From Phlebopus portentosus (lineage: Eukaryota > Basidiomycota > Agaricomycetes > Boletales > Boletinellaceae), in NCBI GenBank assembly GCA_037892935.1, contig JAYXKI010000005.1:2480001-2544000 (forward strand): a stretch of 64,000 nt of DNA, read 5' to 3'. The notes under the pieces are model-generated. The model was not told where the DNA came from and did not search any database. It was given only the letters and a program-made list of their open reading frames with translations. This document shows positions 8,661 through 50,642 of the stretch, piece after piece. The position numbers were made by a program, and so were the translations under genes. Numbering within the stretch: position 1 is the first letter of the stretch; every line of letters begins with the position of its first letter.

Positions 8661-8810
8661 TAAAACTCACTGATAAAAAGCCATATAGAAATTGAGGCTT
8701 GAATAACAACTTTGTCTACTGTAATACTTCACAATAATCTCTATATTCAGCAAAACAGCTGAATCTCAAATGGAAACACCATTCATGTCTTGCAGGTCGA
8801 GTATAAATTA

Positions 8811-45072: not shown

Positions 45073-47598
45073 ATGCCCAACAATGATCGTAAGTATCTTC
45101 TCTTATATAGAGTTCATTCTCATTGTAATATTGGGTATAAGTGATTGCGGATGATTTAAAAGACGTAATATACAAGTGGAACAAGGCTGTGCTGAAAGTT
45201 GAGGAAGCCCGGGACAGCAATGTCAGTTACATCTGGGGCTATCGGGATGCAGTTGAGCATGTAGCGCCCTGCATTCATGCACTTTTTGAGGCGAGTGTGC
45301 ATGCCTCGCAGCTCGTGGATGCCCTGTTCGACGAGGTGAAGGAGATCAGAGATTCGTCAAATGACTTGTCTCTCAGGATGACGGAGGTGAGTTTTAGCAC
45401 TTTCTTTCAAGGACTTATAGTTGCTTATATTCTCTTAGGAGATGACGGCAGATCTGGCCATCGGAGGAAGGCTTTCTTTTGATATCGGCTTAGAGATGTT
45501 TGGCCAAATTGGCTCGATACTTGCAGAGATCGGTAGAAAGGATGGAGGCATTCTCAACAACAGTGGCAATGATGCAAGGCTTAGGGCCTTTGTGACTTGT
45601 TTTGACAATTATGGCAAACTCAAGCCATCTACTTTCCTTTCGCATTTGGCTTTCTTATTAATCGGACTCGGGGATCTTACAGTGGTGACTGGCAATTCCC
45701 AACTCCAAACCGTGTGTTCCCACAATTCCTGCCGCGTCGTGCCAGTGATCGACGCATGCATAAATGTTGTTGCACTTTTGAAGATGGCCTTCACCTCAAT
45801 CTCACGTTGTGCACAATGCTATATAAATATCCAAAAAATGTTACAAAAATGTATTTAGGCTTGTAGAACATGGATATAAAATTTTTGTGCAAAAAACATC
45901 CCATTTGAATGCAAAACACGGCACTTTTATGCAGTTTCTCAGCAATAGAGGATATCCTTAAGAATTTTTTTTGAACAAAATCTTTAAAGTCATGTAAAAC
46001 TTACATCCCGTCACTAAAAATCACAAATATTGATGAATTGAGGGAGGAGATAGATTTCGAAAGTAGGGGGTTGGGACAGTGCAGATTCAGAAAATTAACG
46101 AACACGTGATGTGATAGAAATATGTTGAACTCCGGCGACACCTCTGCTTCTCGATCAAAGAAGCAAGAAAAGGCAAAATTCAATCAGTAAGCATATGTAA
46201 AGGATAGTTTGATGCATACAGAGTACTTACAGTGCGATTTGAGAAGAGAAATGCCAAAAACGAAGCAATCACGCTCTAGAGCCCAAGTTTTGGTGCTCCA
46301 GAAAGCTTGAGACGATCTCGCAACTGTCAGTTCATCGAGAAAAGAGAATATTCCTGTCAAAAACACAAGGTCGACGAGTTTGAAGATCAAACAACTTACG
46401 GTGGACTTGCAAAGGGCAGAAGGGCGGCTTAACGAAACACAAAAGCTTGCTATTTAGCAAGCTGTCGACTTTTAAACAAGGAGTTTCAGAAGCTCGAGAC
46501 TGCCAATAAATTGATGAGACATCACCTTGTGCAAATACAGGTGGCACTTACCAAAAGCGAGGACCAGCTGTCCAAGGTGTGGGCAAATACATCTGCCTCT
46601 CAAAACCAGGTCAGGTACCTGCAAGTTGCTCGCAAGCGTCTTTCCGAGACCAAAACTTTGCTGGGCAATAAAAACAAACAATTAAGAGGTCAGTTACTGG
46701 CAAAGGAGACAAAACTCACCAAACACGAAACGACGGCTGCTGCATTACATTTGCACATCGAAACCTTGAGCAATGCACCAAAAATCGCACCACCATCACT
46801 GTCCTCAATGAATGTCAGTACTTTGGTCACGAATTCATGCCAGAGAGAACTTGAGAGAAGGATCAGAATGCTGGAGAAGAAGATTTGTCAGATCGGAAGA
46901 AATTACAACAGAAAAATTGAGAACTTACGCAATTGAATTCAGACAACCCGAAGCAAATACAATGCTCTCCGAATGCAACTTTGCCAATCTCGAAAACATG
47001 TCAGCAAGCTCGATTTGTTCAAGAAGAAAGCAATGATAATGGTTTGACATACCTATAAAGGACTGTACTCGACTCGTCTTCGCTCACTCATTCGCCGAAT
47101 GTGTAGTCTTGGATGTCCTCTGACAAAATGCGGAATGGTTTTTTCTGAGTTCATGAAGTTCCTCTGTAATTTTATTGGACTCACCTCTGGAATGAAAATT
47201 CGAGTGCCGAGCATATGAACAATCAGAAGATTTGTCAAGGAAGGAGAGGTTGCATCCAGGATCCAACTTGGTGAAGAAATGAGACGAACCGTTGGTACGT
47301 TCATAATGTTGAAGAGCTTCCTGATCAATCGAGTTTAATTTTTGTCCAGGATTTACCACTGGCGGCAATGGAACTACAAACAAAAGTCAGAACTTCGATT
47401 CTTTTCATCTGAACTTCTCGATCCCAAAAAATGCCTCCTCGGAGGCATCTTCATCATCTGAAACTATTCGACATGTTCGCTTTGGGAACCTACGAATGGA
47501 GGCAAATCATAGAGCCAAAATGCAGATGAATGGAGACGTCCAGTTCATACAAAATTTCATTGATCTGTACAAAAAGAGTCCATTGGGACAAAGAAATG

Positions 47599-47651
47599 GT
47601 CAGACTATACTCAGCTAGGATCTATTGTATAGGTGCTAACTCGAGTCTCAG
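47599..47651 (+). other. Introner-like intron 1 (53 nt)
   Basis: A GT-AG intron in phase 1 between codons for QRN and DVLTL. It begins GTCAGACTATACTCAGCTAG and has branch motif GCTAAC nine bases before the AG. It is almost identical to the introns at 48312 and 48720. Confidence 0.85.
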
Positions 47652-48311
47652 ATGTTTTGACGTTGGATACATCGAATGCTCCGCTGAGCATTGAGACGGC
47701 CACTTTGAAGTACCACGGATCGCATAGTGACCACGCAGAGGACCAGAAGGCTAAGCATCGTCTTCTTGCCACCTGGAAAGAGACTGTATCATTGCGTGGA
47801 CTTGGAGCAAAGCATTTTTTTTCCTTACCTGAAGATCGACGCGAAGCTTTCATTTGTGGAGGAAGAGAAAAAATGATTGAAGAACTTGGAAGCGAATCAG
47901 CATGGTGGGCATTAACACCAGAAGAACAGGCTGAAAAAAACTTAGCTTTGACAGGGGATCTGGCTGATGAATTAGCTGGGGGGGCTCTTTTGTCACTTTC
48001 TGAAGAGGAGCAAAGATGAATCAATATATTTGTCTGGGCAGGGTGCGGAATGCACAAAGATTTAAATGCTGTGAAAGGTGGAGATTCAGTGATGCAGGAA
48101 GAATGGAAAAAATTTGATATCTCACCTATCCTGCTTGCCAATCGAGACAATTCAGTGGTTTTGGAACTCGCAGAGTGCGATGGAGAAGACCCGGGGGATG
48201 AACGAGACGAGACAGCTGCTGAGAAGCGTGCTCGTGAAGTTTTGAAAGCGGGTGGTGTCAAGTTATCATATCTGATAGGATTGCTGGTCAATGATAAAGA
48301 CGATAAGAAAG

Positions 48312-48366
48312 GTGAGACTATACTCAGCTAGGATCTATTGTATAGGTACTTACTCGAGCCTTGCAG
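48312..48366 (+). other. Introner-like intron 2 (55 nt)
   Basis: A GT-AG intron in phase 1 joining DDKKG to WHHIFRDW. It begins GTGAGACTATACTCAGCTAG and shares the following ATAGGT block and the region before the AG with intron 1. Differences are a few bases. Confidence 0.85.
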
Positions 48367-48719
48367 GTTGGCATCACATCTTTCGGGATTGGGCCTCGAA
48401 GCATATCGGCCTGACGTTCACATTTCCCAACACGTCGAATACACGATATTCGTCGTATCTCGATGCGGCCGCAGAAATTCTCATGCATTTGGATACGTAT
48501 GTCCAATTTATGGACCGAGTTCGCTATTCGAAGGTTAAACCTTCGCTCAATAACCTTGAAGAAAATATTAGCAATGCATTGAACGACCCACTGACACTCA
48601 CCGAACTTGCATGCCTTGCACTGTACCGAGAGGCCGTTTCGATTCCCTACATATCTTCGATCCGGGGGGACTCTCTTGAGGAAGTGAATGCTCTCGAGCT
48701 TGGATCTAGACTGCGGGAT

Positions 48720-48780
48720 GTGAGACTATACTCAGCTAGGATCTATTCACAGGTACTAACTTGAGTCTTACATGATAAAG
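48720..48780 (+). other. Introner-like intron 3 (61 nt)
   Basis: A phase 0 intron joining LRD to VQSHIKR. It begins GTGAGACTATACTCAGCTAG, with a perfect TACTAAC branch motif. The last part departs from the other two copies and the AG used lies a little further downstream, apparently because the original AG was lost. Its first 28 bases match the other two introns except for one base in intron 1. Confidence 0.75.
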
Positions 48781-50642
48781 GTCCAGTCGCACATAAAAAG
48801 GCTGATCGAAGCGCCGCAGACAATCTTGTCTGCCTATTCTAGGCCTCAGGAGGCAATCCTCGATGGAAATAAATCCTGGAATCGCCACAATACCATCGAA
48901 GCAATACAAGAACTTATTACCAAAGGAAGGCTACCAAAGCTGGAACAGCTTTTCGTAGCCTTTTTGAAGGGCGCCCTATCAACTTGGGAACAATTTTCAT
49001 CAGAATTTAATGAAGATGGAATTATTGCAGCACTCACCGAAGAAGAGAAAGAACTGGCTTGGATGCCAGCAACAAATGACGCAAATGAAGGAGCACTTGG
49101 CTCCTTCAGAGTATTCCATCGAGGAAGGCCAAATGGGTCTGTGGAGCTTTTTAACGCATTATTCAGATACCGAAGAAATAGAACAGAAGAATTCATCGAA
49201 CAGAAACTTATCAGCGAATAGGACCAGAAGTTTCTCAGGAGGCAGGCACAAATCGAAGACGCTGAGGGAACGGACAGAAAGCAGTGTCGTGAAATTGAGG
49301 ACGAGAGGGAGGCAGACTACACTACAAAACGTCAGAAGTGCGAAATAAGAAAAAAAAGAAGAGAAGAAACTGATGCACGAATTGACGCTGTCAAACTGCA
49401 GCTGGACTGCGATGCCCTTGAGGAAATGACCGTCGCACAAATGAAAGATCAGTTAGCCAAATTACGCAAAATGCAAAGCGACGTACCGATACCAAAGGCA
49501 AAGGATATGCCAAAGAAGGAGGATATCAAGAGAGCCTTGCTGAACCTCCTGACAATTATGAGGCCGAATCCCTCATCATGATCCATCATCTCGTGCAGCC
49601 ACTTGCTTACATCTTCCCAATCCATGCTTGTACTTCTTCAACTTTTTAGACTTGGGTTTGTCCGGTTCATCAGTAGTTGTTTTCATTATTTCACGTCACC
49701 GAATTCGAAGGATTTCTGGAGAACTTTGCTGTGCATATATGCACAGCATACTGTGACGAGTAGAAAGGGGTTGACCAGCCACCAAGATTCTTGACACGAG
49801 CTCCAAGCATTGATTTCTTGAGACTGAAGATAACACACGCAGATGGTGAGCAAAGGAAGCAGGAGACTAATTGTCGTATTCCCCTCTATCGAATGTATTA
49901 AAGATATAGTTCAATAGTAGTAAAGCTTGATGTCTGCAATTGAAGCTGAGAGGAGTTGCCGACTTAGAAATTCTGGAGGCAAAGCTAAGAAGATTAAAGT
50001 TATGCTCGATCTAAGATAAGGTTGCCGTAAATGACAGAATAAAGTTTTGCACTGTCGGGAAGGCGTGGTGTCCGGTGATAAGGCTTTAAGACATGCATGT
50101 GCGAAGTGCGACAACAAGATCGATGTAAATTACTTAAAACAGGTATATTTCAAACTCCGCCCGGGAGAAAACCTGGCACGTGTCACTCATGGGAATTGCC
50201 AGTCATCACTTACAGTGGAGGAGGGGAAGGAACTGGAAGCAATCCCTATAGTGATGGCACTTTTGAATACCGTATCAATGCAAACCAGTCCTTTGAAGGA
50301 CTCCCTCGAAACCATGGCAATGAGCCTACAGTCACGGCGCAAATACCAGGTATGGGCACTAGAGTGCTTCCTGCAGGCCTTCCCGCCTGTAGAAGGGTCC
50401 GCACGAATTGCGGTCCTTTACTTTTTCATTAAAAAGAATCTGATTCGACAATTTGGTAACAATGCAGCACATCCCTTGGAGACCGGGATGTCTTACTCTT
50501 CTATGGAATTTTTGGTGGAGCAGGTTGACATAAACGCAAAGGATAAGGAAGTTTTGTGCCAAATCTCCCACAATATGGAGAAGATTCAGGATGAGTTCAA
50601 AGGTCTCAAGTTCGGATATAGGTTGAAGGAGCCAAAGAAAGA

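Follow-up and report, generated by a model that had tools for sequence, protein, structure and literature searches.

Human U3 pseudogenes were reportedly ascribed by Bernstein, Mount and Weiner (1983) to self-primed reverse transcription, and are said to be 3'-truncated copies of about 70 nt that begin at the U3 5' end. U3 itself is an RNA required by every cell for ribosome building. LINE-1 chimeras with truncated U3 have also been described (PMC13174262). The 5' half of the U3 hairpin M1 pairs with the 5' end of 18S rRNA (Canzler et al. 2017, PMC5832005), and M1 is a frequent location of the introns within fungal U3 genes (PMC5832005). In the accessible text on introners, Pezizomycotina is the fungal group named as having them, and neither target duplications nor inverted repeats are reported for ascomycete introner families (Gozashti et al. 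2022, PMC9860276). Fungal introner-like elements are described as degenerating fast (PMC4457414), and the symmetrical introns of Hypoxylon are said to function only on the coding strand (PMC8469720).

We analyzed three near-identical introns of a transposase gene in a window of 64,000 nucleotides from Phlebopus portentosus (contig JAYXKI010000005.1, referred to as C5), together with all copies of the same unit in that genome. Like the human U3 retro-pseudogenes, which reportedly extend over about 70 nt, the units are 3'-truncated and start from the U3 5' end (nt 0-69 here); unlike them, they are conserved introns inside DNA transposons, with no flanking repeats visible by eye. They resemble ascomycete introner-like elements and (stw)introns in being near-identical introns that arose at coding sites, with no target duplication standing out by eye here and none in those, but the latter number tens to hundreds of copies, are spread over unrelated host genes, and are described as fast degenerating (PMC4457414, PMC8469720), whereas the present units have a basidiomycete host, are found in transposase genes only, keep a conserved core, include one reversed lineage, and carry U3-like sequence. 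As in the introns within fungal U3 genes, the U3 hairpin M1 meets the spliceosome, but in the converse arrangement, the U3-like sequence being the intron here and the exon there (PMC5832005). As with the mirusvirus candidate introners, similar introns were multiplied in the own genes of a mobile or viral genome; however, the accessible part of that report gives no snoRNA origin, and the carrier here is a cut-and-paste transposon (PMC12768974). As far as the accessible parts of these sources go, the case is set apart from known introners by its host, its carriers, its conservation, its orientation, and its likely origin. A literature search covering titles and the beginnings of abstracts, mostly without subscription papers, returned neither snoRNA-derived introns nor introners in the genus, which is weak evidence. 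The origin of new introns is a long-standing question, and a donor can here be proposed by name, an essential housekeeping RNA.

The features of the window are as follows (positions of the window).

45676..45682, no strand: left target-site duplication CTTACAG, 7 bp, by eye
45683..45701, + strand: left terminal inverted repeat TGGTGACTGGCAATTCCCA of the transposon
47325..47598, + strand: coding segment before intron 1, frame open since the last stop, gene start further upstream
47599..47651, + strand: intron 1, phase 1, aligned to U3 snoRNA nt 0-49 (49/50 identical)
47605..47623, + strand: 19-base core CTATACTCAGCTAGGATCT of intron 1, invariant, box A'/A strand of U3
47652..48311, + strand: coding segment 2, hAT-like transposase, with an in-frame stop in the window copy
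48312..48366, + strand: intron 2, phase 1, aligned to U3 nt 2-52 (46/51 identical)
48318..48336, + strand: 19-base core of intron 2, invariant
48367..48719, + strand: coding segment 3, hAT-like transposase
48720..48780, + strand: intron 3, phase 0, aligned to U3 nt 2-54 (46/52 identical; the allele of two sister copies was aligned, not the window allele)
48726..48744, + strand: 19-base core of intron 3, invariant
48781..49581, + strand: coding segment 4, hAT-like transposase, with an in-frame stop in the window copy
50190..50208, - strand: right terminal inverted repeat of the transposon
50209..50215, no strand: right target-site duplication CTTACAG, 7 bp, by eye

The original prediction had described three near-identical introns with GT-AG borders sharing a 28-base block. 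Their coordinates and borders were exact, the block was common to all three with a single difference in intron 1, and removal of the introns in silico yielded the protein junctions that had been given (QRN/DVLTL, DDKKG/WHHIF, and LRD/VQSHI). From the frame and these junctions, the three units are predicted to be GT-AG spliceosomal introns. A common reading frame running through all three is excluded by their phases (1, 1, and 0). The bases ATG at both ends of intron 1 had been taken as a possible target duplication; they are absent by eye from subfamilies A2-A4 of the element, and this part was not confirmed. The 24-base core had three matches in the window and none in 100 dinucleotide shuffles.

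The carrier, element A, encodes a protein with the hAT transposase fold. hAT transposons have an 8-bp target duplication, whereas that of element A was 7 bp in 3/3 copies examined by eye, the two other copies being flanked by CTATAAA and TCCATAC.

The genome (38.4 Mb, 23 contigs) was searched for further copies. The 24-base core gave 54 matches at zero to two mismatches and none at three, with no match for the reversed control. With up to three mismatches allowed, the 19-base core matched exactly at 50 places and with one mismatch at four; another three matches were more distant, compared with five for the control. By their flanks, the 54 matches comprised 42 introns of hAT-like transposases (9, 9, 6, 3, 2, 1, 9, and 3 in subfamilies A1-A8), 10 introns of Tnp2-type transposases (3, 3, 1, 1, and 2 in lineages B1-B5), and two copies of a duplicated U3-like locus. 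The possibility that all hits would be copies of one transposon, raised with the original prediction, therefore held largely (42/54) but not wholly. All 52 intronic copies lay within transposase genes or their fragments; none of the 54 matches was in a host protein gene, and viral contigs contained no exact match to a 22-mer. With one representative intron taken for each site and lineage (22 of the 52), the units occupied five sites in two unrelated transposase families, with alike introns between dissimilar flanking exons.

A genome search with the 327 bp of the U3-like locus as the query found 45 places, every one among the 54, and missed nine known A7 copies, so that other distant copies could escape as well. 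Because copies were found through the core, those with a decayed core are under-counted, and only the site-by-site comparison within the A family is free of this bias. The nine A7 copies (L041, L042, L043, L044, L047, L049, L051, L052, and L057) are fragments within longer near-identical repeats. Six of them have about 10 kb in common (99.9% identity); for the other three the common stretch is 5.9 kb (99.1%), or 2.9 kb (98.3%) where the fetched sequence spanned only 4 kb. As they lie inside these repeats, the nine copies probably represent one event. Some are near contig ends and perhaps subtelomeric, and A7 fragments with stops still retain the core.

The two matches outside transposases have the following positions.

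C5:2436470-2436706, + strand: U3-like locus, copy 1, in the 327-bp stretch C5:2436388-2436714
C5:2551675-2551911, - strand: U3-like locus, copy 2, in the 327-bp stretch C5:2551667-2551993

These loci (L038 and L053) are identical over 327 bp, lie in opposite orientation, and flank the window on either side of the same contig. The Plant_U3 model aligned with the locus end to end (local E 3.5e-7). Genome-wide, with 29 of 779 candidates scored, both copies were its top two matches (E 9.2e-6, positions 1-221), and the next three were A2 intron 2 copies (18 bits, E 0.22). When the 65 bases shared with the introns were left out, Plant_U3 was still the first match of the locus (E 0.048). A TATA-like TATATAAGG is located about 35 nt upstream. 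Two hairpins lead the predicted fold, in which a stem also links the 3' end with nt 77-82. The score of the locus was 32.6 bits versus the Rfam curated cut-off of 80 for Plant_U3, and the locus was absent from the genome-wide matches of the Fungi_U3 and general U3 models. By eye, boxes A' and D fit the fungal box consensus of PMC5832005, boxes A and C' are one letter off, and boxes B and C fit poorly. The duplicated locus is very probably a U3 snoRNA and was used as the candidate U3 of this genome.

All 22 representative introns aligned with this U3 from nt 0-6 to nt 48-69, with 83 to 100% identity of the aligned letters. The region covered is the 5' domain, that is, hairpin M1 with boxes A'/A, plus M2 in the longer introns. 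None of the sequence upstream of U3 is included, the matches starting at the U3 5' end; in the B4 intron, the match starts at nt 0 despite ten preceding intron bases, and the reversed B5 unit spans nt 3-59. A U3 5' start, 3' truncation, and lack of a promoter, as in U3 retro-pseudogenes, were found for 22/22. The first core base is C in all 52 intronic copies versus T in the U3 of the P. portentosus genome. An Rfam scan of window positions 47550-48830 returned neither a tRNA nor a U3 match, and the A2 intron with its flanks matched Plant_U3 only at E 0.2. Around the units, no target duplication stood out by eye; the sole shared context at their ends was the splice context AG|G(T).

The intron body is likely the 5' domain of U3 snoRNA. 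As the match runs from the U3 5' end and does not include what lies upstream, the units are like 3'-truncated reverse-transcribed copies, and their origin was probably RNA-mediated. Reverse transcription of the U3 5' end would have yielded a fragment that was inserted into transposase genes, where the branch-site-like GCTAAC from U3 and the GT/AG ends may have let the insert be spliced. The units would afterwards have traveled inside the transposons, and purifying selection may keep the strand of M1 that pairs with 18S rRNA. That the units are U3-derived spliceosomal introns, gained and carried by transposons, with a core under purifying selection, is the reading we find fairly probable, judged from sequence comparison.

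Related copies with and without the introns were compared, as had been proposed. Relatives of the hAT-like transposase that lack the core in the same genome (eight fetched out of about 14 such places) were uninterrupted at site 1 in 7/7, at site 2 in 8/8, and at site 3 in 7/7 covering loci. As these relatives read through the three sites, the introns were gained. Core carriers formed one clade separate from the intron-free loci (FastTree support of 0.98) in a 40-sequence tree (15 loci and 25 of 85 public relatives), which was built from exons 3 and 4 only, with one short locus dropped, and rooted with six distant fungal proteins chosen by hand. By sequence, the three introns were gained at coding sites in one clade of the hAT-like transposase, and the units were inherited with the transposons. 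Among the A subfamilies covering each site, the core was present in 4/6 at site 1, 6/6 at site 2, and 7/8 at site 3. Intron 1 is absent from A5 and A8. A8 retained the core at site 2, and the core is gone from its site-3 intron; that intron nevertheless aligned with four of the units better than expected by chance (0, 1, 2, and 0 of 500 shuffles as good).

The 25 public relatives aligned at the junctions mostly had no extra residues where they covered them. In P0009 (S. baumii), intron 3 is kept in the translation and residues are missing at site 2; P0008 contains a fragment of intron 2, and P0006-P0008 have additional residues at site 1. The full retained-intron peptide was found among the 85 relatives only in P0009, and a search with this stretch (2 candidates) returned only P0009. 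The 85 relatives (P0001-P0085) come from many mushroom-forming fungi (Mycena, Coprinopsis, Fomitiporia, Suillus, and others); none has a precomputed Pfam domain, and those that carry a name are annotated as hypothetical or uncharacterized. Intron-free relatives in the P. portentosus genome itself, which together with a nameable donor make origin, splicing, and function each testable, include C8:1821931-1823637 and others, some with long open frames.

In the Tnp2-type (Tnp2/CACTA) transposases of element B, the unit occupies two sites, at which relatives bear other introns by eye. In the two B5 copies, the unit runs opposite to the gene; its removal as a GT-AG intron restored the frame, and the joined protein matched Transposase_21 (PF02992, E 1.3e-7, 31.5 bits versus the cut-off of 28.6), while the other B pieces, scanned separately, were below the cut-off or had no match. 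At the same site, the B4 unit is forward and B1-B3 have other intron-like stretches by eye. As B5 is reversed and B4 forward at one site, the unit either came to B more than once or was inverted. The reversed B5 copy keeps the core though its RNA strand is unlike U3.

The proportion of synonymous differences (pS) of A1 was 0.74, 0.76, and 0.77 to A2, A5, and A8, respectively, and 0.60-0.78 in 24 of the 28 A subfamily pairs, with lower values for A3-A4, A3-A7, A4-A7, and A5-A6. It was 0.69-0.86 among the B lineages and 0.34 for B2a-B2b. Synonymous sites between most carriers are saturated, which disfavors a recent introner burst, and near-identical introns need not imply recent introner activity. 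In the 22 representative introns, only 2/418 letters of the 19-base core were off the majority, a count biased by the introns having been found via the core. Outside it, the changed letters amounted to 29/132 at the 5' splice site, 30/229 in the middle, 26/308 around the branch site, and 75/279 in the tail. Core versus middle plus branch region (56/537) gave a Fisher p of 1.7e-12 with letters taken as independent. M1 pairs were kept in 298/329 cells and M2 pairs in 39/61. Introns were more alike within than between sites when tails were included (3/5000 permutations as good), but not when tails were left out (1184/5000); grouping by element was matched by 4675/5000 permutations. The 5' splice-site bases and tails beside the core vary among sites and subfamilies. 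Such a fixed core suggests either purifying selection or homogenization, and we favor selection because the bases neighboring the core and the tails differ.

Homogenization of the core in U3-derived introns, by ectopic gene conversion or repeated re-seeding in place of selection, is an explanation that we consider unlikely. It agrees with the many copies present together in the genome and with the fact that not even the A7 fragments or the reversed B5 copy have lost the core. Yet the 5' splice-site bases and tails directly beside the core differ between sites and subfamilies, and the introns cluster by site and not by element, though only with the tails counted. The difference at the first core base sets all 52 intronic copies apart from the present U3, which makes re-seeding from it unlikely. 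The intactness of the core in the reversed B5 unit would also suit a DNA element, such as a transposase-binding site or enhancer, that lies in the introns by happenstance, its U3 likeness being secondary or due to chance. We hold this to be highly improbable: neither the A1 element nor the scanned 4.5 kb of A2 and 5.5 kb of B1 (ends unmapped) had a further core-like site above the shuffle level, relatives of A are without the core at several loci, and the matches begin at the U3 5' end without the U3 upstream sequence.

The original prediction proposed introner-like elements. In their ordinary form these would be mobile introns of recent spread, multiplied through reverse splicing or in the manner of tiny DNA transposons. 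The part concerning intron gain at coding sites stood in one gene family (7/7, 8/8, and 7/7 uninterrupted relatives), near-identical introns do occur at five sites in two gene families, and the accessible text on fungal introner-like elements describes insertion without target duplications as well (PMC9860276, PMC8469720). The part concerning recent genome-wide spread was not borne out: 0/54 copies are in host genes, synonymous sites are saturated between most carriers, and the sequence is likely the 5' domain of U3. The core is fixed, with a single decayed copy (A8 site 3), whereas fungal elements are described as degenerating fast (PMC4457414); inspection by eye revealed no target duplication, and in one lineage the unit is reversed and its removal restores the frame. 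As a whole, this reading is very unlikely.

It is possible, though doubtful, that two unrelated cut-and-paste families keep the 18S-pairing hairpin of the host U3 as introns under selection, and that their pre-mRNAs or excised introns are U3 mimics. Such mimicry could serve, for example, nucleolar routing, or protection, since silencing the transposon would silence U3 too. If the core is under selection, the transposons would have adopted a host ribosome-assembly signal in their introns, a previously unknown host-parasite link. As a guess, and a rather unlikely one, the M1 strand would be kept because the intron RNA acts in trans by base pairing like U3. A universal 18S 5' end was not found in the assembly at up to three mismatches, and rDNA may be missing there; pairing was therefore computed only against this universal sequence. 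With it, the 22-base core paired better than 993/1000 shuffles. The shuffles as good numbered 0 to 90 of 1000 for single introns, 79 for the genome's own U3, 31 for the decayed A8 intron, and 864 for the reversed B5 strand. Given the counts for single introns, U3, and A8, pairing in trans is only a lead.

Several other identities were rejected. A tRNA or Pol III origin had been suspected from A-box-like letters; ARAGORN found no tRNA, and neither did Rfam in 47550-48830. A mirtron-like hairpin was not supported by folding z-scores of -1.9 to +0.7 in six stretches (three offset from the exact intron borders), -1.5 to +0.7 in seven introns, and -2.7 in a hand-typed consensus. In a test for inverted symmetry, seven introns were equaled by 28 to 415 of 500 shuffles, and the consensus by 75. 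Transposase-binding repeats did not exceed the shuffle level. A weak intron-model match at window positions 8735-8779 (E 0.052), in which the core is not visible, is probably due to chance. A single core-like 19-mer with two mismatches, outside the 54 matches, is located at C2:188383-188401.
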